Shown piece after piece: positions 22,745 to 46,231 of a stretch of 64,000 bases of DNA (within the stretch, counting starts at the first letter, position 1; each line of letters starts with the position of its first letter). The stretch comes from Bacteroidales bacterium (lineage in GTDB: Bacteria; Bacteroidota; Bacteroidia; Bacteroidales; UBA10428), in assembly GCA_016931575.1 (NCBI GenBank), contig JAFGEO010000118.1:79457-143456 (forward strand), in the 5' to 3' direction. The notes below the pieces were generated by a model. It was not told where the DNA came from and ran no database searches. It saw only the letters and a program-made list of their open reading frames with translations. Made by a program: the position numbers and the translations under genes.

Positions 22745-23908
22745 ATGAAAGACTATATACATTACGTACATAACATTCCGGATGGCAGATCATTATGGGG
22801 AATACACCCACCATCAAAGCGGTTGCTGGAAGAAGATGTTCAAAGTCGCTTCAATTCCATAAATGAATTACAGCAAGCCATTATCGATGAATCGAATCAC
22901 ACAGTTTTTTCTTTTGTTTCCGAGCATCTTGATTTGCAGAAGTATTTTAAGAGCATTGTCTTCACTTCCCGGTACAGGTCTTATGTCGACAACGTTGATT
23001 TCAGCAATGTGCGGGCTATCATTAATTTTAAGAGAATTAATTATATCCGTGAAATAAATGAGCATTTTAAATCGGTTAATATCCTGTTACCTGACGCAGG
23101 TATTTATATCGGCCGATGTGAAACCTACTTTAATCGAAGGATACGATTCTATACTCGTTTTGGCAAAAAGATGGGTCGCCTGCTCTGGCTGGTCGATTTC
23201 GTTTTCAACAGGGTATTTCCAAAGCTCAGACCTTTTGATAAAATCCATAAATTGTTCTTTGGGAACAGGCCTCATGTTATATCCAAGGCTGAGATTCTGG
23301 GCAGGTTGGTTTACAATGGCTTTGAGATCATTGAATTTAGGGAAATAGATGGTATTTTTTACTTCGTCGTAATGAAAACCAGGGAACCGAATATAGTGAC
23401 TGCTGCTCCTTCATATCATGCCCTAATAAAGCTTGACCGGATAGGTAAGAATGGGAAAATTGTAAAAGTATTCAAGTTCAGGACCATGTATCCATATTCA
23501 GAATACTTACAGAATTTCGTAATACAACTGAATGGGTACAATGAAGTCGGGAAGCCATCGAATGATTTTCGGCTTGCCGGATGGGGGAAGGTATTCCGTA
23601 AACTCTGGCTTGATGAGATTCCTCAGTTTATCAATGTTCTTAAGGGTGAAATGAAACTGGTTGGTGTGCGTCCGCTAAGCAAGGTGAGGTTTTCGCAGCT
23701 GCCTGAAAAGCTTCAGAGGGAGCGTATAAACTTTAAACCTGGCTGTTTTCCCCCTTACGTGGCGTTAAATATGCCTGATGATCAGGGCAACATAATTGCA
23801 GAGGAGATTTATCTTAAAGACCTGCAGAAACATCCCTATACCACAAACATAAGGTATTTCATAAAAGCAGTTCTCAATATTCTCTTTAATCGGATAAGAA
23901 GTTCCTGA
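22745..23908 (+). CDS. Sugar transferase initiating exopolysaccharide synthesis (polyprenyl-phosphate glycosyl-1-phosphate transferase)
   Basis: The C-terminal 190 residues match the bacterial sugar transferase family (PF02397): KLDRIGKNGKIVKVFKFRTM, then DFRLAGWGKVFRKLWLDEIPQ and INVLKGEMKLVGVRPLS. Such enzymes put the first sugar-1-phosphate on undecaprenyl phosphate. The N-terminal half lacks the multi-helix membrane domain of WcaJ/WbaP. It is soluble and ends with KAEILGRLVYNGFEIIEFRE plus IDGIFYFVVMKTREP, an arrangement I recall as usual for Bacteroidota members. It is divergent from araA and 39 bases upstream of a GT39-like gene. This is the only candidate initiating enzyme for the locus in the window. 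Confidence 0.88.
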   Translation: MKDYIHYVHNIPDGRSLWGIHPPSKRLLEEDVQSRFNSINELQQAIIDESNHTVFSFVSEHLDLQKYFKSIVFTSRYRSYVDNVDFSNVRAIINFKRINYIREINEHFKSVNILLPDAGIYIGRCETYFNRRIRFYTRFGKKMGRLLWLVDFVFNRVFPKLRPFDKIHKLFFGNRPHVISKAEILGRLVYNGFEIIEFREIDGIFYFVVMKTREPNIVTAAPSYHALIKLDRIGKNGKIVKVFKFRTMYPYSEYLQNFVIQLNGYNEVGKPSNDFRLAGWGKVFRKLWLDEIPQFINVLKGEMKLVGVRPLSKVRFSQLPEKLQRERINFKPGCFPPYVALNMPDDQGNIIAEEIYLKDLQKHPYTTNIRYFIKAVLNILFNRIRSS

Positions 23909-25392: not shown

Positions 25393-26292
25393 CTAAATTT
25401 TCGCAGCACTTATCACTCTGATGTTACCCTTGGTATCGGCAACAGATTCAATGGAGTGATATAGTTTAGATTTCTCAAATAGTCCCATAATGAATTTGCC
25501 CTGTCCAAGTCCTACCTCTAACACTACAAATGCATTTTTTCCAAGGAGTTGGGCAGCTTCCCGAATCAGCTTCTGAATTATTTTTATTCCCATCATTCCT
25601 CCGTCGAATGCCAGATCCGGCTCATGGTTAGCAATCTCTGCATTCAATGTAGATACTTTTCCAGATGAAATATAGGGCGGATTGCAGACAATCAGATCGA
25701 TTTGGTTCAGAAATCCGGGGTTTAAATAGGCTTCAAGTACATCACTTCTTTTTATTTCCACTCTTTCGTGTAAGTGGTAAAGCCCAATATTTTCCCGGGT
25801 AAGCTCAAGGGCTTCTTCTGACAGGTCGCAGGCCTGTACTGTAATGTTCGGATTCTTCAAAGCGAGAACTGTGGCAAGATTTCCACTTCCACAGCATACA
25901 TCAATAACCGATATGTCTTTTTCTTTCGAACTAATTATGTTAATCAATTCCTGTGCACGCTTGCCAAGAATTTCAGTTTCTTTCCGTGGGATAAGGGCTC
26001 GTTTATCCGTGATCAGTTCGATTCCCATAAAGTTCTGCCTTCCTGTAATATGAGCCAAAGGTATGGGGCTTAGCCTTTTTTCAATAAGCACCTTAAGTTT
26101 GTCTTCTTGCGTTGTGCTAAGACTTGGAAGGGGATGATTCAGGGCTGTTTCAGCAGAGTAATATGAGCCTGTTACCAGGTGCCACAGTGCATGTAAGGTG
26201 GAATCCGGGGTCTCTTCGGGTTTATCCTCCAGCAGGTGAAGTTCTCTGCTAAGTTTTTCCTTTAGCTGGTCATATAGGGTTTGATTATGCAT
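25393..26292 (-). CDS. PrmC/HemK-like glutamine-amide N-methyltransferase in a biosynthetic cassette
   Basis: A 299-residue class I SAM-dependent methyltransferase with the two-part architecture of PrmC. It has an N-terminal helical region ending PIPLAHITGRQNFMGIELIT and PRKETE, then the SAM motif VIDVCCGSGNL (129-139) and the amide-binding N-P-P-Y (204-207). Authentic PrmC methylates the GGQ glutamine of release factors. This gene starts one base after the stop of the AMP-ligase gene and ends the five-gene cassette, so it could instead be a paralogue acting on the cassette product. It is either the housekeeping prmC or a recruited copy; the sequence alone does not decide. Confidence 0.8.
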   Translation of the reverse strand: MHNQTLYDQLKEKLSRELHLLEDKPEETPDSTLHALWHLVTGSYYSAETALNHPLPSLSTTQEDKLKVLIEKRLSPIPLAHITGRQNFMGIELITDKRALIPRKETEILGKRAQELINIISSKEKDISVIDVCCGSGNLATVLALKNPNITVQACDLSEEALELTRENIGLYHLHERVEIKRSDVLEAYLNPGFLNQIDLIVCNPPYISSGKVSTLNAEIANHEPDLAFDGGMMGIKIIQKLIREAAQLLGKNAFVVLEVGLGQGKFIMGLFEKSKLYHSIESVADTKGNIRVISAAKI

Positions 26293-26293
26293 C

Positions 26294-27865
26294 TTAAGAT
26301 AACATTTGTTTAAGTATCTTCTTATCTATTTTTCCATTGCTGCTTTTTGGCATCTCTTGTAAAAACAAGATTTTCTGGGGGACCATAAACATTTCAAGAT
26401 GCTTTGAACAATGCATCAGGATCTCTTTATCGGTTAAGGAAGCGGTTTCATGCACTGTGATGACAGCTGCAATACTTTCCCCAAGAACCTCATCCGGCAT
26501 TCCGAAGACAGCTACTTCTCTGATCCCTTTTAGTTGGTATATGAGATTTTCAATTTCTACCGGGCTGACTTTCTCCCCTCTTGTTTTTATAATATCATCG
26601 GTTCTTCCCTGGAAATACAGAAATCCTTCTTTATCCATTCTAAACCAATCCTGGGAACAAAGAATCCTCTCACCTGGAATGAATCCGGGTTTTAGCATTT
26701 GATTGGTGAGTTCTTCTTTATTCCAATACCCGGCCATTACGTGCGGCCCTCGTATATGCAGGATACCAGTTCCTCCCGGTGGAACGATTTCACCCTCCGG
26801 AGACATCAGAAATACTTCAGTTCCCGGAATAGCTTTACCAACTGATTCCGGTTTTAATTCAAGAAATTCCGGTTCAAGGTAACATACTCTTTTGCATTCT
26901 GTTAATCCGTACATCTTGAAAATCAAAGCTTTTGGAAATATTTTCTGCAGTTCAGGCAGGAATTCTCCGGGCAACTTAGCGGCTGTATTTGTAACTTTTT
27001 CAATACAATCGAAGGACAATTCTTTCTTCTTGCTGGTGGCGATCATCATGGCATAGATAGTGGGCACACCTGGGAAAACCGTGGGTTTTAATGTTTCTAT
27101 CTGCTTGTATATCGTTGCAGGGAATGCAAAGGATTGCTCAATAATCAGAGTGCCTCCGCTGGTTATAGCCATAAATAATTGATAAAGACCGTAATCAAAG
27201 GCCATAGGAAGAAGAAGTAATATTCTGTCCTTCTCGGATAATCTGAGGTATTCAATAAGGCTCCATGAAGTAAAAACCATGTTTTGATGGGTCATCATAA
27301 CCCCTTTGGGAAAACCAGTGCTTCCGGATGTATAAATTAAAGCAGCCAGATCGTTCGGTATAATTCGTGGAAAAACTTCCGGGTTATCCTCGTCAGACTG
27401 CATGATATTTTCAAATCTCTGAAGCCGGAAATCAGGCTGAAAAGGTAATGTTACTTCCGGTCCCGACAGAATAAGCTCATCAATACCTCCGAAGTCCTTA
27501 AGTGCCAGTGCAAGCTCGTTGTGCAGTATACTTTCAGCGAAGAGCGTCCTGGCACCACTGTCAGTAAGAATGTAATGCAATTTGTCTGCTTTTGTCTGCG
27601 GGTTAATAATAAGAAATACACCTCCTGCCAGGGTAATGGCATAGATAGCAAGTACGCAGTGCCATGAATTATTCATATAAATCGCCACCCGATCTCCTTT
27701 TCGGATCCCGATGGAAGTTAGATAAGCTGCCAGCTTCCTTGTTTCAGAATTTAATTCCTTGTAGCTATATTCCTGACCTTTGAATATTATGGCTGTTTTC
27801 TCGGGATTGATCCCGGACGAAATCTGAAGTGCTTCACCCAGCAATCTTTGCGGTATACGGACCAT
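26294..27865 (-). CDS. AMP-forming acyl/aminoacyl ligase (ANL superfamily)
   Basis: A 523-residue adenylating enzyme that should activate a carboxylic acid with ATP and pass it to a thiol. The core motifs are IYTSGSTGFPKGVMMTHQNM (A3), MYGLTECKRV (A5), FQGRTDDIIKTRGEKVSP (A7/A8 hinge) and the C-terminal lysine motif SSNGKIDKK (A10). With a carrier protein three genes upstream in the same cassette, loading of that carrier is the obvious role. The family resembles ligases found with asparagine-synthase-like genes in exopolysaccharide (exosortase-associated) loci. The acid substrate cannot be predicted. Confidence 0.85.
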   Translation of the reverse strand: MVRIPQRLLGEALQISSGINPEKTAIIFKGQEYSYKELNSETRKLAAYLTSIGIRKGDRVAIYMNNSWHCVLAIYAITLAGGVFLIINPQTKADKLHYILTDSGARTLFAESILHNELALALKDFGGIDELILSGPEVTLPFQPDFRLQRFENIMQSDEDNPEVFPRIIPNDLAALIYTSGSTGFPKGVMMTHQNMVFTSWSLIEYLRLSEKDRILLLLPMAFDYGLYQLFMAITSGGTLIIEQSFAFPATIYKQIETLKPTVFPGVPTIYAMMIATSKKKELSFDCIEKVTNTAAKLPGEFLPELQKIFPKALIFKMYGLTECKRVCYLEPEFLELKPESVGKAIPGTEVFLMSPEGEIVPPGGTGILHIRGPHVMAGYWNKEELTNQMLKPGFIPGERILCSQDWFRMDKEGFLYFQGRTDDIIKTRGEKVSPVEIENLIYQLKGIREVAVFGMPDEVLGESIAAVITVHETASLTDKEILMHCSKHLEMFMVPQKILFLQEMPKSSNGKIDKKILKQMLS

Positions 27866-27934
27866 ATTTTCTCGGTTTAGTTTGCATCAGGATTGGTTTA
27901 TTTAGAATAAGTCGGTGGTTCAGCTGTTCCCGGG

Positions 27935-28927
27935 TTAATGGTCATCAATTACTTTGAGAGCCGGCATACGAAGAAATTCGGTGGTCTCTTTCTTTCGCCT
28001 GAAGTTTGAGAAGATATTAAGTATTTCATCTTCAGGGATCTCCAGTACCTTGCTGATCTCTCCAATGTCGTAATTGTTTTCAAACCCATACCATAACAGG
28101 TCCATCATTTTAAATGGCATTTGAAAGAAGAATTCTTCCTGAGTTTGTTCCGCGGAGTAGGTGTCACTTGTTGGCGTGCGGTCGATAATTTCCTGAGGTA
28201 TTCCGAGGTGCCTTGCAAATTGGTATACCTGCGTCTTATACAAATGGGAAATTGGCATAATATCAGTTCCACTGTCGCCATATTTGACGAAGAAACCCTG
28301 CTCGACCTCGTGTTTGTTAGGGGTGCCAATCACGGCATAGCGCATGCATTCTGCATGGTAATAAAGCATGGCCATCCGTGTACGTTGCTTAAAGTTTGAG
28401 GAAGCAACGATTTGGAGGTAATCCTTTGCAGGTAACTTTTTGGTGAATTCATTTCCCTGTTGATCAACAATGACCACTGAGAAAATGGGAGGGAGCTTGC
28501 TATTCGGGGCAGATTTGATTCCAATCTTCATAGTGTAGATCTTTGGATCATATTCAGGGAATACCCTTTTAACCGCTTCATCTCTGCGTTCATAGCATCC
28601 AAACCCCTGGAGGGCTCCGGTTATATCTTCAGTAAGGGTCCTTACTCCAAACTTTTGAGCCAACTCGAGTGCAAGCCTTTTACTATCCGGACTGGAATCT
28701 TTTTCCGGGAGCATGATCCCCAAAACACGCTCGGGTCCAAAGGCCCTCACGGCAAGCGCAAAGGACACGGAAGAATCAATTCCGCCACTTATGCCGACTA
28801 CTGCACCCTGCCGGTTAAATACTCTCAGTGTGAGGTCTCTCAAACTGTTAACAATCTGCTCAACGTATTTTTCTATATCCGGGATTTGCAGAATTTCCTT
28901 ATGGAATCCGGTTTTGGTATCAGTCAT
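27935..28927 (-). CDS. NadE-like ATP-dependent amide ligase
   Basis: 330 residues of the adenine-nucleotide alpha-hydrolase fold with the PP-loop SGGIDSS (47-53) and later GTPNKHEVEQGFFVKYGDSG and PISHLYKTQVYQFARHLGIP, typical of NAD synthase. There is no glutaminase domain, so ammonia must come from elsewhere. The adjacent glutamine-hydrolysing AsnB-type enzyme is a possible source. It is about 50-60 residues longer than ordinary ammonia-dependent NadE. Its tight packing in the cassette (12 bases from asnB) argues for a biosynthetic paralogue that amidates or condenses an acid, though a role as the cell's NAD synthase is not excluded. Confidence 0.8.
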   Translation of the reverse strand: MTDTKTGFHKEILQIPDIEKYVEQIVNSLRDLTLRVFNRQGAVVGISGGIDSSVSFALAVRAFGPERVLGIMLPEKDSSPDSKRLALELAQKFGVRTLTEDITGALQGFGCYERRDEAVKRVFPEYDPKIYTMKIGIKSAPNSKLPPIFSVVIVDQQGNEFTKKLPAKDYLQIVASSNFKQRTRMAMLYYHAECMRYAVIGTPNKHEVEQGFFVKYGDSGTDIMPISHLYKTQVYQFARHLGIPQEIIDRTPTSDTYSAEQTQEEFFFQMPFKMMDLLWYGFENNYDIGEISKVLEIPEDEILNIFSNFRRKKETTEFLRMPALKVIDDH

Positions 28928-28939
28928 AGGTAGGTGGTT

Positions 28940-30895
28940 TTATTTAAGTTCAACTATTTTACAATTAGTAAGGACAGGAGCTTTTTTTCTCTGATCAATG
29001 AACTGATGGATCAATAACTGGGTTGATAGTATCCCAGTTATTGCCATGCTGTCTACTTCAGATCCGTTTCCTGAAAGGATTTTCTCCTGAAGGACTTTTA
29101 CCCGTTCTTTATCAAAGATACCAAATGAATCCAACTTCTTATCCGATAGGAGCTCCTCAACATAGTCACTTCGTTTTTTTTGCATAAAAACAGATTGTAT
29201 CGGGGCCCGGTAAGCTTGTTTGGATCGCCTGGTGATTTCTTGCGGGAGGCGGTCCTTTACAATATTTTTTAGAATATACTTCTCATTGAGTCCATGAAGT
29301 TTCAGATCAGGGTGAAGTTTACTCGCAAATTCAATAACCCTGTGGTCAAGGAAGGGGTAACGACCTTCAACAGAGTTGGCCATAGTCATGCGATCACCCT
29401 GGGACGAAAGCAGGTATCCGGACATAAAGATCGTTGCTTCAAGCCATTGCGCTTTTGCCAGATCTGAATAGACATTAAAGTTATCTGGTAACAAAGGAAG
29501 GATCCTTTCTTCAATATCTATAGCTTTATTTTCAGGAGCTGGAAGGAGGTATGAGTTTATCTTGCTGGTATTATTCCATCGCAGCAAATGGGAATAGATT
29601 GGGGAGTCAATTTCGGTCAGCTTATATCCAAAGAAGAACTTCAACATCTTTCCTTTTTGATTTTGCAGTTGCGGAATATAAGGGTAGAGACGCTTCAGAA
29701 GTAGAGGACGGAGGTTTGATTCAGGATTTCTAGCCCAGAATCGCCTGATTGACATTTCTTTGAAAATATTGTATCCTCCCAGCATTTCATCTGCACCTTC
29801 ACCTGTTATTACAACCTTAATATGGTATTCCCTGACATGTCTGGATAAAATGTGCATAGGGGTAGGGGCAGTTCTGAGAATCGGAACCTCAGTATGCCAG
29901 ATAACATCCGGAAAGGTTGAGGATATCTCATCATTGGTACAGGTGAAGGAGGTATGATGGGTATTGAGATACCTGGATACCAGTCTTTGATATTGGCTTT
30001 CATCATACTCCTTTTCTTCGAACCCTATTGAGAAGGTATTTAGATTCTTATAGGCGATTTTTTTTATGTAATACGTAGTTGCGCTGGAATCGAGTCCTCC
30101 GCTAAGGTAAGCTGCTACCGGCACATCCGACCTGAGTCTTAGCTTAACTGCATCTTCAAGTAATGCATCAAGCTCTTCGATGGCCTGGTTCTGGGAAGAA
30201 ATGGAATAATTGAATCCACTGCTGAAATCAAGGCTCCAGTATTTATGGGTATTGAGTTCCTTTGCTGTTAGTTTAAGGTAGTGTCCCGGAGGTAACTCCT
30301 TAATTCCCCGAAAACTGCTATGCGGTGACAGAGGAGCCCAAAATGTAAAGGTCTCCCTCAGGGCATTCATATCCAATTCGCGCTTCACTTCCGGATGGTC
30401 AAGGATGCACTTGATTTCAGAGGCAAAGATGAAAGTACCGTTCTGGTAATAGTAATATAAGGGCCTGATACCCACACGATCACGGGCAAGAAAAAGCTCA
30501 CCGGATTTTCTGTTCCAGATCGCAAAGGCAAACTGTCCATTAAAGAAGCCGAGGCAATCGGGACCATAGAATTCATAATATTTCAGGACTACCTCAGTAT
30601 CAGAATGGGTAGTAAAAACTACGCCTTTTTTCTCCAGATCTTCACGCAATTCAAGGTAGTTAAAAACTTCTCCATTGTAGACTATCCATAAAGACTTATC
30701 AGGGTTACTCATCGGCTGTTGCCCGGTAGACAGGTCAATAATACTTAAGCGTACATTTCCCATACCAACATTTCCGTCAAGCAGAATCCCGCTTTCATCA
30801 GGCCCGCGATGCTGGATCAGACTCAGCATTGAGCTTAGTAGTTCTTGAGTGGCTGCAGTATTGGGGCGATTAACAATTCCAGCTATTCCGCACAT
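28940..30895 (-). CDS. asnB: Glutamine-hydrolysing asparagine synthase-type amidotransferase
   Basis: 651 residues with both halves intact. The N-terminal glutaminase starts M-C-G-I-A-G-I-V, leaving Cys2 as the nucleophile, followed by QHRGPDESG, RLSIIDLSTGQQPM and YNGEVFNYLELR. The synthetase half has YLSGGLDSS (PP-loop, 265-271) and VVITGEGADEMLGGY. It should transfer ammonia from glutamine to an adenylated carboxylate. It may be a plain asparagine synthetase, but it lies two bases after the carrier protein gene and before the NadE-like gene. Homologues in surface-polysaccharide loci are thought to amidate sugar acids or acyl groups. The exact Met-Cys start fixes the N-terminus. Confidence 0.9.
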   Translation of the reverse strand: MCGIAGIVNRPNTAATQELLSSMLSLIQHRGPDESGILLDGNVGMGNVRLSIIDLSTGQQPMSNPDKSLWIVYNGEVFNYLELREDLEKKGVVFTTHSDTEVVLKYYEFYGPDCLGFFNGQFAFAIWNRKSGELFLARDRVGIRPLYYYYQNGTFIFASEIKCILDHPEVKRELDMNALRETFTFWAPLSPHSSFRGIKELPPGHYLKLTAKELNTHKYWSLDFSSGFNYSISSQNQAIEELDALLEDAVKLRLRSDVPVAAYLSGGLDSSATTYYIKKIAYKNLNTFSIGFEEKEYDESQYQRLVSRYLNTHHTSFTCTNDEISSTFPDVIWHTEVPILRTAPTPMHILSRHVREYHIKVVITGEGADEMLGGYNIFKEMSIRRFWARNPESNLRPLLLKRLYPYIPQLQNQKGKMLKFFFGYKLTEIDSPIYSHLLRWNNTSKINSYLLPAPENKAIDIEERILPLLPDNFNVYSDLAKAQWLEATIFMSGYLLSSQGDRMTMANSVEGRYPFLDHRVIEFASKLHPDLKLHGLNEKYILKNIVKDRLPQEITRRSKQAYRAPIQSVFMQKKRSDYVEELLSDKKLDSFGIFDKERVKVLQEKILSGNGSEVDSMAITGILSTQLLIHQFIDQRKKAPVLTNCKIVELK

Positions 30896-30897
30896 TC

Positions 30898-31158
30898 TTA
30901 CTGCCCGTTTGACTTACTCTCGATATACCTGGAAAGAGCATTTACAGACTCGAAATTCTCTTCGGTCAGATCTTCATCCGAAACCTGAATTGAAAATTTT
31001 TCTTCCAGAAAATCAACCAATAACACAAAGCCCATGGAATCAAAAAAGCCTTCCTGGAAGAGCAAGGTATTATCCTGGATCAGATCAGCCTCTTTGAAGG
31101 TATTATCTTTAATATAGGCCCGTAAAACTTCTTTGTTTTCTGCGATAAGGTTGCTCAT
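30898..31158 (-). CDS. Acyl/aminoacyl carrier protein
   Basis: An 86-residue acidic helical protein with the phosphopantetheine site in EGFFDSMGFVLLVDFLEEKF (serine 41, D-S-M-G). The sequence before it (LIQDNTLLFQEGFFDSMG) is closer to the DltC/aminoacyl carrier type than to fatty-acid AcpP. It is the first gene of the leftward cassette and sits two bases upstream of asnB. It should hold the intermediate activated by the AMP-ligase. Its transcription probably starts in the AT-rich stretch 31159-31438. Confidence 0.88.
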   Translation of the reverse strand: MSNLIAENKEVLRAYIKDNTFKEADLIQDNTLLFQEGFFDSMGFVLLVDFLEEKFSIQVSDEDLTEENFESVNALSRYIESKSNGQ

Positions 31159-31438: not shown

Positions 31439-32449
31439 TTGGGAGTATCAATCAGAAGAACACAGGTTAGAGATCTTCAACAAATAGAAAACCTTTACGA
31501 GCACTCGAAGGTATCTGAGGAGTTGCGATGGGTATTTTCGAATCCTGAAAATCCGGATGAACTGAATTCATGGGTCGCTTTTGATGAAGTCGGAAACCTC
31601 GCCGGTGTGGTCGGTTACGCTATCTCCGGTTATACTTACCTTGGAACGACCTGGAAAGGTGTGATTTCCATGTCATGGATGGTTGCGCCTAAATATCGTG
31701 GTTTATTGGGTATCCAGCTTTTAAAGAAAGCCCTGGGCCAGGCCGATTTTTCCTTTACCCTGGCTGGTTCTCTGGAGGCGCGAAGTCTTTATCATGCCTT
31801 TAAATTGAACTATATACGGGATGCGAATACCTATTTCAAACTGTTTCGTCCCTATGCCTATATGAAATCCTGGCAGGGGAGATCACTTCCAAGAAGGATC
31901 TTCTATATGGCACGATTGTATCAGACCTTTCTGGCAGGGATTCCTTCTTTGAAAGAGTCTGCGTTACAGCTGGTACCTTCCGGGATTTTTCCGGAATACA
32001 GTGAGAGTGATTCTTGTTTTCGCAAAGAAATGACAGCAGGATATTATAAGTGGCTTTTGGACTGTCCATTGCATGAAACACAGGGCTTCCATATTCTCAG
32101 AGGGGAAACGGTCAGGGGGGTGGCAGTTTGTTATATCCGAAAGACATCAGGAAATACCTCACGGGCAAGGATTGTCCATGTAAGCACCCTGGATGATTTC
32201 AACGAATACAAATCTGTAATTGGTCAACTGTCCAGGTTTCTTATTGACAGGGGTTGCTCATCGGTTTCGATATTGGCAAATCAAAGCGACTTCAGAAAGT
32301 CCCTGAAAAAATTAGGTTTTGTAAAACTCAGGACCAAAAAGAAACCCTATTTTATTAATGACCGGAATAAAATACTTCCTTCACAAGCCATTTTATCGGA
32401 ATGGAACATACAGTACTCTGAAGGAGATAAAGCATACAGGGATATATAA
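31439..32449 (+). CDS. GNAT-fold acyltransferase
   Basis: 336 residues. The N-terminal half is a GNAT domain: the opening strand SIRRTQVRDLQQIENLYEHS, then VAFDEVGNLAGVVGYAIS, and the acetyl-CoA-binding region ISMSWMVAPKYRGLLGIQLLKKAL, where RGLLGIQ takes the place of the R/Q-x-x-G-x-G/A loop. The C-terminal half may be a second, degenerate GNAT-like unit (RARIVHVSTLDDFNEYKSV), as seen in FemAB-type proteins. The start is TTG; no ATG lies upstream in frame. It is divergent from the carrier-protein cassette and could transfer the carrier-bound acyl group to a sugar amine, which is inference. Confidence 0.75.
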   Translation: MGVSIRRTQVRDLQQIENLYEHSKVSEELRWVFSNPENPDELNSWVAFDEVGNLAGVVGYAISGYTYLGTTWKGVISMSWMVAPKYRGLLGIQLLKKALGQADFSFTLAGSLEARSLYHAFKLNYIRDANTYFKLFRPYAYMKSWQGRSLPRRIFYMARLYQTFLAGIPSLKESALQLVPSGIFPEYSESDSCFRKEMTAGYYKWLLDCPLHETQGFHILRGETVRGVAVCYIRKTSGNTSRARIVHVSTLDDFNEYKSVIGQLSRFLIDRGCSSVSILANQSDFRKSLKKLGFVKLRTKKKPYFINDRNKILPSQAILSEWNIQYSEGDKAYRDI

Positions 32450-32474: not shown

Positions 32475-33305
32475 ATGAAGGTTGACTTTAGACACACCAG
32501 ATGGCTTGCTTATTTTGCTATTTTCCTAGTGCTAGGATGTGGTGGTGATAATTTAAATTATGTTCCTATGAATACAAGCTCGAAAACTCTAAAACAAATC
32601 CCGGATAGTCTGCTGAAATCCTTGTCCGGGAAAAAAATTTTCTTTGGACATCAAAGTGTTGGTTATGAAATCATAGGAGGGGTCAGTCAACTCATGAAGG
32701 ATTATCCCGATTTGCAGCTTAATATCGTTGAAACCCGCGATACTTCGGATTTCAATCAAGCTGTTTTTGCGCATTCAAGGATTGGAAAGAACCGGCATCC
32801 GGAATTAAAAATTCTGGATTTTTGTTCGATAATGAACGGAGGGATGGCGCAGAAAGCGGATATTGTCTTTTTTAAATTTTGTTTTGTGGATGTTGATCGA
32901 AATACGGATATTGAAAGGATTTTTAATGAGTATATCGCTAAAACCAGGGAAATTCAAAATCTTAATCCGGATCTGAAGATTATTCATTTAACTGTTCCGG
33001 TACGCGTGAAACCTGATGGCTTCAAAGGGTTCTTAAACAGGGTTTTACTCAGAGATCATAACATAAATCGAAACAACTTCAACAACATGCTCCGGAAGCA
33101 TTTTCCTCCCCAGGATCTATTTGACCTGGCACTTTACGAATCACGCTCTGTAAACAAGGAACGCATCAGTTACAAGATGTGGGGAACTCAGGTATTCTCT
33201 TTAGACCCTGACATAACATACGATGGCGGGCACCTAAATGATAAAGGTGCCCGGTATATCGCTGAGAAGCTGCTTATTAAATTAATCGATAGCTTGCAGG
33301 AATAA
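32475..33305 (+). CDS. SGNH-hydrolase-like lipoprotein of unknown function
   Basis: 276 residues with a lipobox (FLVLGC, followed by GG). The mature part begins SGKKIFFGHQSVGYEII, where G-H-Q-S-V takes the place of the G-D-S block, and ends with DGGHLNDKGARYIAEKLL, which supplies the D-x-x-H pair of SGNH block V. I do not recognise a named family. The position 25 bases after the GNAT gene suggests joint expression. A role in adding or removing acyl groups on the exported polysaccharide is possible, comparable in fold only to AlgX/DltD-type proteins. Confidence 0.65.
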   Translation: MKVDFRHTRWLAYFAIFLVLGCGGDNLNYVPMNTSSKTLKQIPDSLLKSLSGKKIFFGHQSVGYEIIGGVSQLMKDYPDLQLNIVETRDTSDFNQAVFAHSRIGKNRHPELKILDFCSIMNGGMAQKADIVFFKFCFVDVDRNTDIERIFNEYIAKTREIQNLNPDLKIIHLTVPVRVKPDGFKGFLNRVLLRDHNINRNNFNNMLRKHFPPQDLFDLALYESRSVNKERISYKMWGTQVFSLDPDITYDGGHLNDKGARYIAEKLLIKLIDSLQE

Positions 33306-38102: not shown

Positions 38103-39125
38103 TTAAAGAATTTTTTTGAAAGAATTTCTGATGCTCGGAATAAAACCTGAGCATAGCAGGTCGAGAACAGGTTTATTAACTGAGGGATTAATGGTTATTC
38201 TGGGCAAAGCGTGCATACGATTAATGTGTTGGGGAAATATATTGGCAAGCCGGGTCGTTGCAGCAGTTTCGAAATCCAGGTCAGCCATTAGCTTAAAATC
38301 TCTTTCTCCGGCTTCAGTTTTGCTACCAAAGGGATAGGCGAAATGTTTAATCTCGCACTTAAGTTCTTCCTGAATCCGGATTTTAGATGCAAGCGCTTCA
38401 TTTTTAGCCTCTTCAGGTTCCAGCTTTAGGAGAGCCCTGTGTGTTATGGTATGAGCACCAATAGTAACCAGCGGATCGGCACTTAGTCGCCGAAGCTGCT
38501 CCCAATTCATGCTTAATCGACGCTCTTCCGAGAAAGCATCAATCATATACCTGTTGAAAAACCGGATGATTTCTTCACGGGTGCTTGAAATCAGATGACT
38601 TCGAATGGTATAGAATGCTCTTTCTTTCCCGGCATTGCTTGAACAGTCAATGACATCCTGGTCAATCTCCACCTTCTTTTCCCTGATAAGCAGTTCCTCA
38701 AGTAGATACCACCAGATCAATGCTTTATTATCCGGGAAGTCAGTAGTGATGTAAAGTGTAAAAGGGATCTTATGCTTCCGGAAAATGGGATAGGCGATCT
38801 CATAATTATCCAGGTAGCCATCATCAAAGGTGAATATTACAAATTTATTTTTCTTGTGGTTCAGCCGGTCTTTTAGCTGATCAAGTGAAATAAAGTCGTA
38901 TTTTCTTTCCTCAAAATAGGCTATTATTTCTTCAAGTTGTCCGGTACTTATTTCAAGCGTTTCATGATTGTGTATCCTGAATCTGTTTTCCTTTGGAAGA
39001 ACACGATGGAACATTAGTATATGTCCCCATCCCGAATAGAACGGTCTGAAAAGCTCCTGCACCTTAAGTGAAGCAATCATCGGCCCCACAGTCCTTGCCA
39101 CTATTTTTTCATAATACCTGTTCAT
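38103..39125 (-). CDS. Polysaccharide deacetylase (NodB / CE4 family)
   Basis: 340 residues. The NodB core shows KFVIFTFDDGYLDNYEIAYP (catalytic D-D) and TIGAHTITHRALLKL (metal-binding H-x-x-x-H), with the later block IKHFAYPFGSKTEAGERDF. The N-terminal ILMFHRVLPKENRFRIHNHE is typical of the bacterial surface-polysaccharide branch. There is no signal peptide, so it may act on lipid-linked sugars at the inner face of the membrane. It starts two bases after the ATP-grasp gene; removal of an N-acetyl group could expose an amine for that ligase. Confidence 0.9.
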   Translation of the reverse strand: MNRYYEKIVARTVGPMIASLKVQELFRPFYSGWGHILMFHRVLPKENRFRIHNHETLEISTGQLEEIIAYFEERKYDFISLDQLKDRLNHKKNKFVIFTFDDGYLDNYEIAYPIFRKHKIPFTLYITTDFPDNKALIWWYLLEELLIREKKVEIDQDVIDCSSNAGKERAFYTIRSHLISSTREEIIRFFNRYMIDAFSEERRLSMNWEQLRRLSADPLVTIGAHTITHRALLKLEPEEAKNEALASKIRIQEELKCEIKHFAYPFGSKTEAGERDFKLMADLDFETAATTRLANIFPQHINRMHALPRITINPSVNKPVLDLLCSGFIPSIRNSFKKIL

Positions 39126-40408: not shown

Positions 40409-41527
40409 CTAATTACCATTCGAAATTTTCGCCATTTTTTTGTAAAGTACCTCATATTTTGGGGCAATTACCGTCCATGAGTAAATATTTTTGAGTCTGG
40501 AATGGGCATTATTGGTTTTTTCTAAAGTTTGCTTTTCATCCTTAAAATATTCCGCTAATTTTTCTGAAAGATCCCGGGCATCATTCGAGCGAAAGAAAGT
40601 CACTTCATTTTCAGTAAAAAGCTCCCTGTTTTCTTCGATATCACTACAGATAATAGGTGTTTTCATTGAGGCTGCTTCCAGAAGCATCATTGACATATTC
40701 TCACTGTAGGAAGGGAAGATAAAGAGTCTGGCGTGCCTGAGGTAAGTTAATACCTTAGATTTATCCTTTATCAGGCCCGGAAATTCCACATCCATGCTTT
40801 TGGCCAGGTTAAGGATCTTAGTTTTGTAGGCAGGCATCTGGTTCATATCACCAAGTACGAGGAGCTTCTTTTTGAAGTTGATCATTTTAAGCGCCTCAAG
40901 TAAAAGGTGCAATCCTTTCAGTGGAATGATCCTTCCGGCAGCAAAGAGGAGGTAATCACGATATTCAACTGCCGATTCTGTATGAGGGTTAAGATCAATT
41001 CCATTCGGGATATAATGGAATTCACGTGTGTAACGTTGGGTGAATTTTGTATGTAATGGTTTTCCCACACAGCTAAATTCGTTGGCAAACCTAATAGCAA
41101 TACGTTCATTCAGCCGGAAGAAGAATTTTACATAGCCAGGCCATTTTTCAGCAAGTTGAGGTTGGGCATGAGCAGTGAGCAGTACTTTGTATTTTAACCG
41201 AAGCAGGGGCAGGATGATGGCTCCGTCGGTATGATGAAGATGAATTAGATCATATCTTCCATATACCAGTGCATGGAGCGCTGATTTAAAATAATAGAAA
41301 AAAATATTAAGCTTTTTAATTGGGAACTTGCGGAATACAATCTGGTAGAAACCATCCTGAGGCCCAGGTTTATCGGTATGAGAGCGAACTCCATAGACTG
41401 TAAAACTGAATTTGCCTTTCAGGGAATTAATCAGCCCCTGACCAACAGATGCGGCCCCGCCAAAAGCCGGCAAGCCTTTAAGTCCTATAATTCCTATATG
41501 TATTTTTTCCTGGTCTGGTTTGTCCAT
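40409..41527 (-). CDS. Glycosyltransferase, GT4-like (GT-B fold)
   Basis: 372 residues with the GT-B two-domain plan. The N-terminal GIIGLKGLPAFGGAASVGQGLINSL has the G-G-A-x-x acceptor loop. The C-terminal donor site shows LFAAGRIIPLKGLHLLLEA and FIFPSYSENMSMMLLEAASMKT with the E-x7-E motif. It is retaining, cytoplasmic and sugar specificity is unknown. It is the last of six consecutive glycosyltransferases, five bases after the preceding one. A 99-base gap separates it from the ATP-grasp gene. Confidence 0.9.
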   Translation of the reverse strand: MDKPDQEKIHIGIIGLKGLPAFGGAASVGQGLINSLKGKFSFTVYGVRSHTDKPGPQDGFYQIVFRKFPIKKLNIFFYYFKSALHALVYGRYDLIHLHHTDGAIILPLLRLKYKVLLTAHAQPQLAEKWPGYVKFFFRLNERIAIRFANEFSCVGKPLHTKFTQRYTREFHYIPNGIDLNPHTESAVEYRDYLLFAAGRIIPLKGLHLLLEALKMINFKKKLLVLGDMNQMPAYKTKILNLAKSMDVEFPGLIKDKSKVLTYLRHARLFIFPSYSENMSMMLLEAASMKTPIICSDIEENRELFTENEVTFFRSNDARDLSEKLAEYFKDEKQTLEKTNNAHSRLKNIYSWTVIAPKYEVLYKKMAKISNGN

Positions 41528-41532
41528 GATTT

Positions 41533-42618
41533 TTACTTAATGCTATCAATTAAACTGATGTACTGGTTCTCAATTTTTGTTGTAGAGAATTCGCTGTTTA
41601 GAAGTTCATAGCCTTTAATACCAAATTCAGTTCGTTTGACAGGATCTTCAATCAATTCGTTCAATTTTGCGGCCATTACCTGGAATGCTCCTGGCTTTGT
41701 AATAAAGCCGTTATGCCCATCCCTGACCATGTATTTATTATCACCGACATCAGTGGCTATAACAGGCAGCGAATGCCCCAGCGCTTCCATAATCGAATTT
41801 GAAAAGCCTTCCAGGATGCTTGAGCACAAATAAATATCTGCATCTTCAAGATAGGGATCCACCGATTTCGGCATACGGACAAGTTCGGTGTAGGGCTCAA
41901 GTTCAAGTTCCCGGATCCAGGATCGTAGTTGATCTTCAAGAGGGCCCCAGCCGACAGCAAAATATTTAAGCTTTGTCCGAAGTTTAAAATTATCAAGTAG
42001 AAAACGAATAGCTCTCAGAGAAGTCAGGTAATCTTTATTTGCATTGTAGCGGGAGACCGTTATGATTTTAATGGTTTCTGAAGGTTTACGATGCCTGGGG
42101 GGCGGGATACTGGTATTCGGAAAATTAGTAATTACTATGGATTTTTTTGGAGAGAAACCCTCCGATACCAGCTGCTCTTTGCCAATCTGATTATTAAACA
42201 GAAGGTATTTCATCGTGGTGTGATGCAAGATTTTTATCAGCAACTTCTTTAGCGGGGGCAGTGTGCAATTGCGAACTCCGCCAATAAATTCTATGCGCGT
42301 GAAATATGATACCACGCCGGTTAACAGGTTATCAATGGGCAGGTAGGTAAAAACGATTTTGATATTATTCTTTCGGATGATTCTTTGAAGTTGCCATGCT
42401 CTTCTGAAGAAACTTCCTTTCAGAAATACATAATCGATCTTTTCCTCCTCTGCAAAGCGGAGATTTTTTACATCTGAAGATTTAGCTTTCCCCTGGACGA
42501 TAACAAGTACGGGGTACTTTTTTTTAAGCGATCTGGCAAGCAGCAAGCTTTGTTTTTCCGCACCGCCAACTCCCAGACTTTTGGTTACTATGCCAATACT
42601 TTTATTCATCCTGTGCAT
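41533..42618 (-). CDS. Glycosyltransferase, GT4-like (GT-B fold)
   Basis: 361 residues. The opening KSIGIVTKSLGVGGAEKQSLLLARSL is the classic GT4 glycine-rich acceptor loop. The donor site has IKIITVSRYNANKDYLTSLRAI and IYLCSSILEGFSNSIMEALGHSLPV, with intact E-x7-E. Its start overlaps the upstream glycosyltransferase by 17 bases, which implies translational coupling; a second ATG at 42609 is equally possible. Substrates are unknown. Confidence 0.9.
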   Translation of the reverse strand: MHRMNKSIGIVTKSLGVGGAEKQSLLLARSLKKKYPVLVIVQGKAKSSDVKNLRFAEEEKIDYVFLKGSFFRRAWQLQRIIRKNNIKIVFTYLPIDNLLTGVVSYFTRIEFIGGVRNCTLPPLKKLLIKILHHTTMKYLLFNNQIGKEQLVSEGFSPKKSIVITNFPNTSIPPPRHRKPSETIKIITVSRYNANKDYLTSLRAIRFLLDNFKLRTKLKYFAVGWGPLEDQLRSWIRELELEPYTELVRMPKSVDPYLEDADIYLCSSILEGFSNSIMEALGHSLPVIATDVGDNKYMVRDGHNGFITKPGAFQVMAAKLNELIEDPVKRTEFGIKGYELLNSEFSTTKIENQYISLIDSIK

Positions 42619-43708
42619 TCAGTTCTTTAAACAGGTCAAGAAATGCTTTGAACATAATATCGATCGTGAAGGCATGAAGGACCTTTTCCTTTCCTCTCTT
42701 ACCAAACAGTTGACGTAATTCTTCATTGGCCAGCAGAAAGGTGATTTTTGATTCCAGTTCCTGCGGATTTGATGGACGTATTATGAAGCCTGAATAGTGA
42801 TTGTCAATGATTTCAGGGGTCCCCCCACCGGATGAGGCGATTACTGGTTTTTCCATGGCCATGTATTCAATAATAGAGTTGGAAATGCCTTCCCGGTGTA
42901 TCAAAGGATTAGACATTAAAATACCGATATCAAAAATGTTAATGATTTCTTCAACCTGGCTCTGTCTCCCGGTGAATTGAATCAGCTCGCGGTATTCCTG
43001 TGGTACCCGGCTTTTTTCCTTTTCCAGATTTTGACCATCCCCAATCGCTATGAAGGTTATATCATCTCTTTTACTGCATATCGAAAGTGCTGTACTGATG
43101 AATGTATGGTAGTCTTTTCGGGGATGAAAAGCACCGACCATACCCACAACGAATTTTGTTTTAATGCCGAATTTCTGACGTATTTCTGAAGGAATGGTTT
43201 CCACCTCAAAACGATCCAGGTGAACACCATTATAAATGACGCAGGATCTGAAGACCGGAGTAGGATACTTTTCAATACCGGCGAAGGAGTTAGCCATGAC
43301 GATATCTGAGAAAGGAAAGGTGAGTTTGGAACGTATCCAGTTTTTACTGAAAACTTTACATATGCCATTCTGAATCATATAGTTCACAAATTTTACCTTT
43401 TTGTTCATGACGAAGGGAAGGGCATAGACAGAAGGCATGGTTCCCCATGATAGGATGATGTCAGGCTTATAGGTGTTAATGATTTTTCGGAGTTTTAAAA
43501 ATACGGTTGGGTCTTTCTTTATTCTTCTTTTCAGAATGTGGAACCTAACACTGAGGTTCTTTGATTCCTCATATTGGTTCATATTCTTAAACAAAACCAC
43601 TTCATTTACGATCTCATCGCAACTTTCAGAAGCCTTCAGAAATTCTATCAGTTGTCTTTCCTTTCCTCCTCCTCTCAGGCTGTCAATCAGATGCAGTACG
43701 CTAATCAT
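42602..43708 (-). CDS. Glycosyltransferase, GT4-like (GT-B fold)
   Basis: 368 residues. The N-terminus ISVLHLIDSLRGGGKERQLIEFL carries the acceptor loop. The C-terminal half has FVVGMVGAFHPRKDYHTFI and IGILMSNPLIHREGISNSIIE, with E-x7-E, then YMAMEKPVIASSGGGTPEII. It resembles GT4 enzymes of capsule loci that transfer hexoses or N-acetylhexosamines. It begins three bases after the preceding gene ends. Confidence 0.9.
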   Translation of the reverse strand: MISVLHLIDSLRGGGKERQLIEFLKASESCDEIVNEVVLFKNMNQYEESKNLSVRFHILKRRIKKDPTVFLKLRKIINTYKPDIILSWGTMPSVYALPFVMNKKVKFVNYMIQNGICKVFSKNWIRSKLTFPFSDIVMANSFAGIEKYPTPVFRSCVIYNGVHLDRFEVETIPSEIRQKFGIKTKFVVGMVGAFHPRKDYHTFISTALSICSKRDDITFIAIGDGQNLEKEKSRVPQEYRELIQFTGRQSQVEEIINIFDIGILMSNPLIHREGISNSIIEYMAMEKPVIASSGGGTPEIIDNHYSGFIIRPSNPQELESKITFLLANEELRQLFGKRGKEKVLHAFTIDIMFKAFLDLFKELNAQDE

Positions 43709-43711
43709 CAG

Positions 43712-44872
43712 TTAAGATTTTTGGTAGTTAATAGTCCTGTCGTATTCACAGATAAGTTTATCAGACAGGGAGTTCCAGGACTTTTCCCCTGAAAAGTACT
43801 CCTTTTCGATATTTTGATACAGTTTCTCTCTGAGGTCAGGTTCAGTTAGCAGACGTTTCAGACCATGATACAATTCATCAGCTTGTTTTGGATTCACGAG
43901 AAGGCCCGTTTTTTCATGCTCAATTACCTCAGGGATTGCTCCGACATTGGTTGCAATAATTGCCTTCCTGAATGCAAGGGCTGTCATGATCACACCACTC
44001 TGTGTTGCATCCGTATAGGGACAGGCAATAATTTCGGAAGATTGGATGTATTTTACCATTTCTTCATTGGGAATGAAACGATTGATGAAGGTAATACCAG
44101 CATTTCTATAGTGTTTTGTATCGAACCAGTAGTTCCCTTTCCCCAGAATCCATACTTGCAGACCTGGTATCTCTTTTTTTAGTCTGACGGCCGCATCACA
44201 CAGGTAGTTAATACCCTTGTATGGCGAGATCCTTCCAAAGAACAGGATGCTCTGAGGGATAGGCTCCACAGTATTGGAAGAATAATTTGTATAGACATCA
44301 TAGATCCCCAGACTGGAATGGATTAGTTTTTCCTTTTTGAGTCTGAAGGTTTCCATAAACTGGGAATCGTTCATATGATTTAGCAGAAGGATCTTATTCG
44401 CTTTCCGGATCACAAGTTTCTTCAGATAGTGTTTTTTTCTTTTAAACTCCCCGGAATGAAAAGTCGGATCGTGAATGGTCTGAATGCGGGGAGTTCTCAT
44501 AAAAAGCAGCCCGATATGTGGCAATGAGATATTTCCTCCAAAATGGATGATATCCGGCTTTGTTCGCAGAGCAAATTTTACTATTGATACAGCTTGCATG
44601 AACTTGCCAAAAAGTGAGGTCTTTTTACGATGCTGGAAAAACGATTTCGAGTAATCAATATATTCATGGAAGAATGAGGGGAGGTATTCACTGACCTCGG
44701 AAAAAGCAAATATTCCCTCCGGAAGCTCCTTCTCCAAATGTAGAATGGTGGACTGATAGGAGTTTTTATGCAGGTCACAGATATAGGTAAGCTCAACTTT
44801 CCCAGCAAGGCTTTTTAACAGCTCAAGATCGAGATCCATAAAGAAGCTTGTTGAGAAATAGAGTACTTTCAT
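43712..44872 (-). CDS. Glycosyltransferase, GT4-like with T-Q-S-G-V donor loop
   Basis: 386 residues of GT-B type. The N-terminal strand VLYFSTSFFMDLDLELLKSL lacks the usual glycine-rich loop. The donor domain has SILFFGRISPYKGINYLCDA and IIACPYTDATQSGVIMTALAF, then KAIIATNVGAIPEVIEH. The first glutamate of E-x7-E is replaced by the T-Q-S-G-V loop found in a GT4 subgroup, so donor preference probably differs from its neighbours. It is an internal operon gene with 33 bases to the upstream gene. Confidence 0.87.
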   Translation of the reverse strand: MKVLYFSTSFFMDLDLELLKSLAGKVELTYICDLHKNSYQSTILHLEKELPEGIFAFSEVSEYLPSFFHEYIDYSKSFFQHRKKTSLFGKFMQAVSIVKFALRTKPDIIHFGGNISLPHIGLLFMRTPRIQTIHDPTFHSGEFKRKKHYLKKLVIRKANKILLLNHMNDSQFMETFRLKKEKLIHSSLGIYDVYTNYSSNTVEPIPQSILFFGRISPYKGINYLCDAAVRLKKEIPGLQVWILGKGNYWFDTKHYRNAGITFINRFIPNEEMVKYIQSSEIIACPYTDATQSGVIMTALAFRKAIIATNVGAIPEVIEHEKTGLLVNPKQADELYHGLKRLLTEPDLREKLYQNIEKEYFSGEKSWNSLSDKLICEYDRTINYQKS

Positions 44873-44905
44873 ACTAATAGTAATATTTTGGTTATAGTTT
44901 TTTAA

Positions 44906-46231
44906 TTATTTTTTTAGCTGAATGAGTGCATCCTGAAATCTTCCTTTTACCTGTGTTTTTTCATGCTTATGTTCGGCCAGATGAATAGCATTTTTTGAAT
45001 ATTGTTCCCGAAGTTCCTGGTTCTCTATTATTTCCTTTAGACGGGTTGAGAGGGCAGGGATACTATTCTCGTTCACCGTGAATGCCCAATGGTACCTTGA
45101 GGCATATTGATAGAGTGCTGTAGATTGATGGGCAAATACAAGGATTGGTGTTCCGCAAATCATATATTCAGGGGCTTTGGTTGGCATTGACAGGTGAATG
45201 TAATCCAGGTTCTTTTTATCGAAGTCCATGGGCAGAACCAGGAGATCAGCAGCTGAGAAAAGGAAGGGGAGATCATTATATTCGGCAAAATCATTCCGGA
45301 CAATATGTTTTGCCTGAGAGATGAATTCTTCGAATTTTTGAGGAATCTTTTTGCATTGAATCTGCATTTCAACCCTGATTCCTTTTTCTCCAATGTCCTC
45401 CACCGCTTTCATGACGGTAAAGAGAGATTCGGATGTGCCTGGCCCAATGCGGCCTGCATAAAGGATCTTAAAATTGTCGGAGAAGGTCCAGCTGGTTTTT
45501 TGTCCCTGTTTCCAGAAATCAAGGTCCACATAGTTATGAAAAGGAATAAATTCATGTCCATAGCGCTCCTTATATTCCTCGCTCATGGTTTCGCAAATAC
45601 TCATCAGGAGTTTTGACTGGCTAAGGATGTGACGCAGATCTCTTTTTAGTTTGTGATTCCAGTAAAGGTGCGAGAGTCCCGGTTCATTTGCCACTTTAGG
45701 CCAGTCGTCCATGAAATGGATGACGAGGGGGATATCCCTCTGACGGACCAGCTCCTTAACAAAGGGTACCAGCCAGGGATTTAGAAGCTGGGTATAAATG
45801 ATATCAGGGGAGTTTTTATCGAGCCAGTCCAGGAGTTTGTTGCTAAGCTTGAGAGGAAAGAGAAAATGATAAATGCCGGCTGCCCTTACCAGGTACTCAA
45901 TGCCTTGTTTCAGAAAACGGTTGTACCTGGATTTCCTGGGGGTGTACTGTCTGAAGTCATCGATCTTTTTCTGTGGGGAGAGCTCAACCTCACCGGATTG
46001 ATACTTTGGCTGGAAGATATTCAGGGGCCATGGGCGTTTCGTTTCATCATAGCCTATTCTGTAATATCTGCTGCATATTTCCAGACCTTCTTTCTCAATA
46101 TGCAGGTTGACAACAGATAGCTTATCCTTTGGCCATCCTTCGAGGAGGTTGAAAAGGGTAATGCCACCCCCATCACTTTTATTCAGGTAGCTCCCAAGGA
46201 TTATTAGATTTGGATATTCAGCTTTTTTCAT
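44906..46231 (-). CDS. Glycosyltransferase, GT4-like (GT-B fold), larger variant
   Basis: 441 residues. The start NLIILGSYLNKSDGGGITLFNLLEGW contains a G-G-G acceptor loop. The C-terminal domain has FKILYAGRIGPGTSESLFTV, FSAADLLVLPMDFDKKNLDY and HLSMPTKAPEYMICGTPILV. The S-x-P-T-K-x-x-E-Y block replaces the E-x7-E motif and is usual in one GT4 branch. Its start overlaps the upstream glycosyltransferase by 14 bases. Confidence 0.88.
   Translation of the reverse strand: MKKAEYPNLIILGSYLNKSDGGGITLFNLLEGWPKDKLSVVNLHIEKEGLEICSRYYRIGYDETKRPWPLNIFQPKYQSGEVELSPQKKIDDFRQYTPRKSRYNRFLKQGIEYLVRAAGIYHFLFPLKLSNKLLDWLDKNSPDIIYTQLLNPWLVPFVKELVRQRDIPLVIHFMDDWPKVANEPGLSHLYWNHKLKRDLRHILSQSKLLMSICETMSEEYKERYGHEFIPFHNYVDLDFWKQGQKTSWTFSDNFKILYAGRIGPGTSESLFTVMKAVEDIGEKGIRVEMQIQCKKIPQKFEEFISQAKHIVRNDFAEYNDLPFLFSAADLLVLPMDFDKKNLDYIHLSMPTKAPEYMICGTPILVFAHQSTALYQYASRYHWAFTVNENSIPALSTRLKEIIENQELREQYSKNAIHLAEHKHEKTQVKGRFQDALIQLKK

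Follow-up and report, generated by a model that had tools for sequence, protein, structure and literature searches.

A recurring set of genes for a carrier protein, an AsnB-type amide synthetase, a NadE-like amide synthetase and an ANL (AMP-forming) ligase probably builds an unusual amide group on outer sugar polymers, as judged from the sequences of the encoded proteins and their neighbors. On balance, we lean towards a cassette that makes a small, amidated acid on the carrier protein, from which an acyltransferase attaches it to a surface polysaccharide. The cassette was analyzed in a window of 64,000 nucleotides from a Bacteroidales bacterium (contig JAFGEO010000118.1), where a fifth gene encodes a PrmC-like methyltransferase (Table 1).

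Table 1. Cassette genes and neighboring features in the window.
Feature	Position	Strand	Basis and remarks
Carrier protein, 86 aa	30898..31158	-	PF00550, 29.1 bits; GFFDSM attachment site
AsnB-type glutamine-dependent amide synthetase, 651 aa	28940..30895	-	TIGR01536; GATase_7 and Asn_synthase domains
NadE-like ATP-dependent amide synthetase, 330 aa	27935..28927	-	NF002048; family insertion of about 50 residues
ANL (AMP-forming) ligase, type A, FDYGLYQ pocket motif	26294..27865	-	PF00501, 301 bits; pocket comparison
PrmC-like methyltransferase, 299 aa	25393..26292	-	TIGR00536/TIGR03534; tree; motifs; cassette clade apart from housekeeping PrmC
GNAT-like acyltransferase candidate, 336 aa, TTG start as listed	31439..32449	+	Profile match; divergent from cassette
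SGNH-like protein (by eye), 276 aa, possible accessory	32475..33305	+	No family match
Polysaccharide deacetylase	38103..39125	-	PF01522, 69.6 bits
Glycosyltransferases, sulfotransferase, Wzx-, Wzy-, Wzc- and Wza-like proteins	40409..54243	-	Pfam; context
Bacterial sugar transferase	22745..23908	+	PF02397, 83.7 bits; context

The five leftward genes described in the initial annotation are all present as open reading frames, in the order carrier, AsnB, NadE-like, ligase and PrmC-like and with gaps of 2, 12, 69 and 1 bases. AsnB exceeds the cut-off of TIGR01536 (520.4 against 267.1 bits) and contains both the GATase and the synthetase domain, in agreement with its description as glutamine-dependent. 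The NadE-like protein matches NF002048 and PF02540 and has no glutaminase domain, also as described. In the family search, the ligase shows PF00501 and a C-terminal domain, and the NCBIfam models closest to the carrier (cispentacin ACP AmcB and DltC) all score under their cut-offs. We take MCGIAG and SGGLDSS in AsnB and SGGIDSS in the NadE-like protein to be active-site motifs, GFFDSM to be the attachment site of the carrier, and NGKID and NPPY to be characteristic of the ligase and the methylase, respectively; each can be read in the translation, including the N-P-P-Y motif noted earlier.

A unit of five genes had been proposed, which the comparison across genomes narrows to four. By gene content, the conserved unit is the carrier protein, AsnB, the NadE-like enzyme and the ANL ligase, while the PrmC-like gene is optional and tied to one ligase type. 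The five-gene unit was rejected because loci with cysteine- or glycine-pocket ligases yielded no methylase. All four core genes occur in 48 of the 54 loci with enough flanking sequence and three of the four in the remaining six, which lack AsnB (L031), a detected ligase (L033, L078, L088) or a detected carrier (L038, L069). L037 stands outside the 54 because its NadE reading frame was dropped in overlap picking. Of at least 584 matches, ranked by likeness to the NadE-like protein of the window, the best 80 make up the named loci. The core is found in Bacteroidota and several other phyla and also on rhizobial and other alphaproteobacterial plasmids. Since it recurs in related loci, the association of the genes goes beyond chance. 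The expected conservation of gene order holds in part: the set is kept, but the order varies among loci.

The optional methylase follows the pocket type of the ligase and not the NadE lineage, as far as sequence comparison can tell. A PrmC-like gene is present in 14 of 23 loci with an FDYG-type ligase, compared with none of 61 other loci. Two of the 23, L153 and L161, were picked after a methylase match had been seen in their own or a related record; leaving out these two and the window, the counts are 11 of 20 against none of 61. Weak methylase-like matches in two genomes (G407, G412) are ordinary PrmC by motif and were scored as misses, and absence of the methylase was checked genome-wide for 32 of the 52 B-type loci. 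As a rule, the methylase gene comes immediately after the ligase gene, and in seven of eight type A loci with both (window included) the two are at most 35 bases apart or overlap; the Sinorhizobium meliloti methylase (L153) is 11 kb away from its cassette. Nine of the 23 FDYG loci have no methylase nearby, one of them with a methylase on another contig. Among cultured organisms with the cassette, Geothrix limicola combines an FDYG ligase with the methylase, and Marinilabilia salmonicolor has a cysteine-pocket ligase. The NadE tree shows at least five changes involving the type A ligase, and neither the AsnB nor the NadE-like sequences track ligase type. The ligases of L029 to L032 are mixed: L030 has an FDYG ligase without methylase and is counted among the 23, and the best ligase match in L032 is a divergent gene. 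In the pocket comparison, the FDYG aspartate and a nearby arginine are the only pointers to the loaded acid; the aspartate presumably suggests an amino group on it.

The PrmC-like protein belongs to the HemK family TIGR00536 (193.6 bits, cut-off 115.5) and lies at the boundary of TIGR03534, with 199.0 bits, or 199.3 with neighbors in frame, for a cut-off of 199.1. Its closest solved relatives are PrmC/HemK, release-factor glutamine methyltransferases, with which it shares the NPPY motif (residues 204-207; PPY is invariant and N present in at least 90% of 16 rows). In contrast to PrmC/HemK, its gene is linked to the ligase gene, the cassette enzymes are 24-31% identical to the PrmC of cassette-bearing genomes, and 10 of the 13 rows of their clade share a distinctive N-terminal motif. 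A tree places 13 cassette methylases on one side of a branch and 13 PrmC on the other (support 100/99), the rows having been assigned to the two groups before the tree was made, with a line at 36% identity, and two long PrmC branches meeting the cassette side according to a tool warning. The PrmC-like protein thus falls into its own clade and does not group with housekeeping PrmC.

The NadE-like protein exceeds the cut-off of NF002048 (432.1 against 313 bits), a family (PRK00876) named NAD(+) synthase. Its predicted model (pLDDT 90) superimposes on NadE 1xng_A over 250 residues (Z 28.4, 2.5 A), and fold and PP-loop motif are common to both. Unlike NadE, the cassette enzyme carries about 50 extra residues between two NadE-like stretches, and this insertion contains residues invariant in 25 sequences. 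Second copies of prmC and nadE elsewhere in the genome, which the initial annotation suggested looking for, do exist: this genome and the 12 related ones examined (13 of 13) all have another NadE and a separate PrmC, and the canonical genes of this genome stand apart from AsnB, carrier and ligase genes. Hence, the cassette copies are paralogs, and the NAD-synthase label is probably wrong for the cassette member.

The surroundings of the cassette form a polysaccharide locus by Pfam, as the initial annotation held, with Wza-, Wzc- and Wzx-like proteins, six glycosyltransferases, a deacetylase, a sulfotransferase and a bacterial sugar transferase; the Wzy match is weak and under cut-off. A deacetylase likewise adjoins the cassette in Azospirillum, and in L057, L116 and L119 a homolog of the SGNH-like protein is at most a few genes away from the cassette. 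Several kinds of acyltransferase are found in cassette loci, including relatives of the GNAT-like protein of the window. The latter has no Pfam match, and its single-sequence model (P0006) was set aside at pLDDT 39. It weakly matches a profile of a long GNAT-like family beside the cassette on rhizobial plasmids (E 1.1e-6, 24.2 bits; E 4e-5 to the Mesorhizobium ciceri member), which agrees with its designation as GNAT. We defined this family here, and its L153, L154, L155 and L029 members are part of the profile and match by construction. GNAT-like neighbors occur in eight of nine plasmid loci; the annotated GNAT of L157 does not match the profile at 1e-5. Glycan loci often contain MBOAT and hexapeptide families, and a DltB-like MBOAT is present in 16 of 92 loci scanned, the counts of both families covering whole fetched loci without a frequency control.

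From these data we infer the following chemistry, including the order of steps, the acid and the acceptor. The ligase would adenylate an acid and load it onto the carrier protein. AsnB, with glutamine as nitrogen donor, would amidate a free carboxylate of the acid, either before the acid is loaded or afterwards, and the NadE-like enzyme would adenylate another carboxyl and add ammonia or another amine. In many FDYG-ligase lineages the PrmC-like enzyme would N-methylate the acid, most likely at the amide nitrogen, and ligase and methylase together would specify the N-methylated version. The GNAT-like protein may transfer the carrier-bound group to the glycan, at one of its amino or hydroxyl groups; elsewhere, this role may fall to a hexapeptide acyltransferase or a DltB-like MBOAT. 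The deacetylase of the window is a possible source of the amino group for acylation. We tentatively propose, more specifically, that a PrmC paralog was recruited to the carrier pathway and methylates the amide nitrogen of a small acid that is bound by the matching ligase or on its way to it. Ligase and methylase would then form an exchangeable cartridge on a fixed core of carrier, AsnB and NadE-like enzyme, the last being an amide-forming enzyme, and this core would decorate surface polysaccharides in several phyla with an amide or N-methylamide group so far unseen.

The methylase might instead act on an amine of the acid or on a protein glutamine, for example of the carrier or ligase. PrmC itself modifies a protein glutamine, and the name of TIGR03534, the apramycin N-methyltransferase named in a PDB entry for a distant PrmC relative and the FDYG aspartate are consistent with such targets. 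However, the cassette methylase keeps NPPY, a motif that occurs in enzymes methylating planar nitrogens, and two amide synthetases adjoin it, and we regard these targets as rather unlikely. Because of the same PDB entry, a PrmC relative acting on a small molecule is not in itself new, whereas an amide substrate, which the initial annotation called new, would be. That the NadE-like and PrmC-like proteins are an ordinary NAD synthase and release-factor methylase, mere bystanders here, is hardly credible: the name of NF002048 and the score at the TIGR03534 cut-off speak for it, but the separate canonical copies, the distinct methylase clade and the conserved four-gene linkage led us to reject it.

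With respect to the destination, an acyl group made for a lipid, a diffusible metabolite or a protein seems unlikely. It would fit the M. ciceri and Nitratireductor loci, which list no polysaccharide gene close by, and the 19 of 54 loci without a homolog of the glycan genes of the window (the only queries used). The other 35, however, have such homologs, and by annotation the Azospirillum, Shinella and Roseateles-labeled loci have, or seem to have, polysaccharide genes. We give even less weight to two separate decorations in one locus, with AsnB and the NadE-like enzyme making uronamides and ligase, carrier and GNAT adding an unrelated acyl group. AsnB-like proteins that make uronamides are known from O-antigen loci, and the independence of AsnB and NadE-like sequences from ligase type would be in line with this. 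Yet the four genes remain linked in the 48 loci, and also in rhizobial loci that have no glycan genes nearby; independent decorations would not require such linkage.

Among known systems, the Dlt system for D-alanylation of teichoic acids resembles the cassette in its ANL ligase and small carrier protein and in the DltB-like MBOAT of some loci. It differs in that the cassette carrier scores only 23.9 bits against DltC (TIGR01688, cut-off 52.35) and that Dlt is not known to include AsnB or NadE-like enzymes; no MBOAT was found among the window locus proteins scanned, and the four of the genome lie on other contigs. Kinship to exosortase-associated sets had also been suggested. TIGR03098, an exosortase A/PEP-CTERM family, is indeed the nearest NCBIfam match of the ligase and TIGR03108 the second-best of AsnB, but both score clearly under cut-off (432.8 against 592.35 and 418 against 816.9 bits), and membership was rejected on score. 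For glutarimide polyketides, AsnB homologs are proposed to amidate a carrier-bound acid to malonamyl-ACP (starter modules SmdFGH, ChxBCD, LtmHCD, MgsHCD and GdsBCD; PMC7756379). These modules share the stand-alone carrier protein and the AsnB homolog with the cassette, but there an acyltransferase loads the acid, which feeds a polyketide synthase. The cassette has instead an ANL ligase, a NadE-like enzyme and an acyltransferase, and no polyketide synthase was seen in the window locus.

No description of the four- or five-gene set was found in the titles and abstract openings of the open-licence papers searched. The cassette would represent a widespread route, undescribed in the literature searched, for assembling carrier-bound substituents, probably of surface glycans. 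The extra nadE, asnB and prmC genes of many genomes would be accounted for, and the family name of NF002048, which now labels these proteins NAD(+) synthase, would need correction. Furthermore, the coupling of ligase and methylase predicts that organisms with an FDYG ligase and a PrmC-like gene carry an N-methylated substituent and those with other ligase types carry none.

The five leftward genes of the cassette lie at the coordinates originally described, with gaps of 2, 12, 69 and 1 bases, and the family assignments of the initial annotation are upheld: a carrier protein, an AsnB with both domains, an ANL ligase, a HemK/PrmC-family methyltransferase and a NadE-like protein, which indeed lacks a glutaminase and falls in NCBIfam NF002048. 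The cassette sits in a polysaccharide locus that also encodes six glycosyltransferases, a sulfotransferase, a bacterial sugar transferase and a deacetylase, together with proteins resembling Wza, Wzc and Wzx and one that matches Wzy weakly. Further features are listed in the table.

Features in the window and in related cassette loci of other genomes (L-numbers)
Location	Strand	Feature	Observation
window 18527-22193		L-arabinose isomerase and sodium:solute symporter	next to the polysaccharide locus
window 25393-31158	leftward	five-gene cassette	
window 31439-32449	+	GNAT-like acyltransferase candidate	
window 32475-33305		276-aa protein, no Pfam or NCBIfam match	homologues (E 1e-33 to 1e-39) few genes from the cassette in L057, L116, L119
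window 33342-37145		1267-aa protein, fn3 and NosD-like domains, T9SS sorting tail	within the polysaccharide locus
window 39128-40309		393-aa protein, no Pfam match	homologue (E 7.5e-72) in cassette locus L068
window 62624-63955		caspase-domain (Peptidase_C14) protein	
L056:12633-13052		SnoaL-like small protein	locus has methylase
L070:14368-14808		SnoaL-like small protein	locus has methylase
L076:10695-11114		SnoaL-like small protein	locus has methylase
L070:14839-15753		further methylase of the cassette type, 38% identical to the window's and more divergent than the first	in a locus that already has one; branches deepest within the clade in the tree as drawn
L153:14425-15971		ligase as two overlapping ORFs (S. 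meliloti)	without annotation

NF002048 is rare: of 395 genomes sampled from the phylum, 13 have it, counting the window's own. Regions around the other 12 NF002048 genes and around the best 80 of at least 584 matches (named genomes) were compared with the window proteins. In 48 of the 54 loci whose flanks extend 5 kb or more to both sides, carrier, AsnB and ligase all lie no further than 7.5 kb from the NadE-like gene; in the remaining six, two of the three do. The gene order is variable: many Bacteroidota loci read carrier-AsnB-NadE-ligase, and most loci of Chloroflexota, cyanobacteria and acidobacteria read carrier-ligase-AsnB-NadE. Of the five-gene unit first proposed, four genes make up the conserved core, without a fixed order, and the methylase is optional. 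Plasmids of Mesorhizobium, Shinella, Rhizobium, Nitratireductor and a Roseateles-labelled record carry genes annotated asnB, acyl carrier protein, adenylate-forming enzyme and nadE; the ligase is unannotated in the Sinorhizobium set, and the Azospirillum set has a different order. minCDE adjoins the cassette region in the plasmids of Sinorhizobium meliloti (L153) and Rhizobium sp. ACO-34A (L158). The cassette is real and conserved, and more modular than first supposed; no description of the gene set was found in the literature searched.

The ligases can be grouped by pocket motif into FDYG, shared by the window and its near relatives (type A) and by distant relatives (type C), YC(Y/F)G (type B) and FGYG, found in six plasmid loci. 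Across 84 loci, the methylase occurs in 14/23 FDYG loci versus 0/61 others (Fisher 2.6e-10, kinship ignored), or 11/20 versus 0/61 (1.4e-8) when the window and two loci chosen once a methylase match had been seen are left out. Genome-wide, it was matched at 1e-30 in 0/32 B-type genomes. Among type A genomes, 9/10 have it (window counted; one on another contig), and among type C genomes 3/9. However, it is absent nearby in 9 of the 23 FDYG loci. Ligase and methylase genes overlap or lie at most 35 bases apart in 7/8 type A loci with both, window counted; in L056, a SnoaL-like gene sits between them. Ligases were swapped repeatedly, the methylase usually travelling along: type A needs 6 changes on the NadE tree, at least 5 of them forced by well-supported branches. 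By its distribution, the methylase is an optional fifth member tied to ligase type.

Cassette-type methylases share 37-53% identity with the window methylase, versus 24-31% for the housekeeping PrmC of the same genomes. In a tree, 13 cassette and 13 PrmC rows are parted by one branch (support 100/99), although the program flagged two long PrmC branches as meeting the cassette side. NPPY and AFDGG are common to the cassette clade, and DKP(E/D)E near the N-terminus occurs in 10/13 cassette and no PrmC rows. A second nadE (252.5 bits, contig C62) and a second prmC (253.6 bits, contig C115), sought elsewhere in the window's genome, are present; the cassette NadE-like and PrmC-like genes are paralogues additional to these copies, around which AsnB, carrier and ligase gave no match. 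The 12 other cassette genomes tested, all with ligase type A or C plus the full set or the methylase of interest, gave the same picture: 12/12 have a separate PrmC that scores above the cut-off, and 12/12 a separate NadE of glutamine-dependent size. A PrmC-like enzyme acting on a small-molecule amide had been called new; an amide substrate would be, yet the use of PrmC relatives on small molecules has precedent by name, since a PDB entry named apramycin N-methyltransferase is a distant relative (E 6.8e-8 versus 3.5e-39 for HemK 2b3t).

The NadE-like structure model is good (pLDDT 90) and resembles NH3-dependent NadE (Z 28.4, 2.5 A over 250 residues; Foldseek concurs), so that by predicted fold the protein is an ATP-dependent amide-forming enzyme. 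An insertion of about 50 residues separates the two NadE-like stretches (profile positions 103 to 171 versus chain 90 to 105), and within it residues 112, 114, 115, 117, 118 and 134 are invariant across 25 sequences.

Most plasmid cassettes have a GNAT-like neighbour some 350-380 aa long (ACYLTRANSFERASES). A profile from five of these finds members in 8/9 plasmid loci and in two further loci (L029 and L030), and matches the window candidate weakly (E 1.1e-6); this weak match and the failed single-sequence model of the candidate count against the pathway proposed below. In Mesorhizobium ciceri, AsnB, carrier, ligase and NadE-like genes are followed on the opposite strand by GNAT-like and 'HemK/PrmC family methyltransferase' genes, an arrangement also found in Ensifer adhaerens by ORF search. 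Anywhere in the 92 loci scanned, a DltB-like MBOAT occurs in 16 (L054, L056, L062, L076, L100 and 11 more) and a hexapeptide protein matching the search profile in 22, both families being common. The MBOAT often adjoins a protein of about 290-330 aa without family match. Next to the Azospirillum cassette lies a polysaccharide deacetylase, and the window locus contains one too.

We propose a pathway in which the evidence is at the gene level and the chemical steps are suggestions. The ligase would load an acid onto the carrier and AsnB would amidate it, a step resembling that proposed for malonyl-ACP and an AsnB-type enzyme in glutarimide pathways (PMC7756379). The NadE-like enzyme might form a second amide or related bond, the PrmC-like enzyme would methylate, most likely at the amide nitrogen, and an acyltransferase would hand the group over to a glycan. 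Against the glycan reading, queries with the window's glycan genes alone found no homologue in 19 of the 54 loci, and two plasmid loci listed no glycan genes close by. Since the core is fixed and ligase types are exchangeable, the data suggest that AsnB and the NadE-like enzyme serve the same function throughout and that the choice of acid lies with the ligase, whether or not a methylase accompanies it. The cassette probably represents a form of carrier-protein-dependent acyl decoration.
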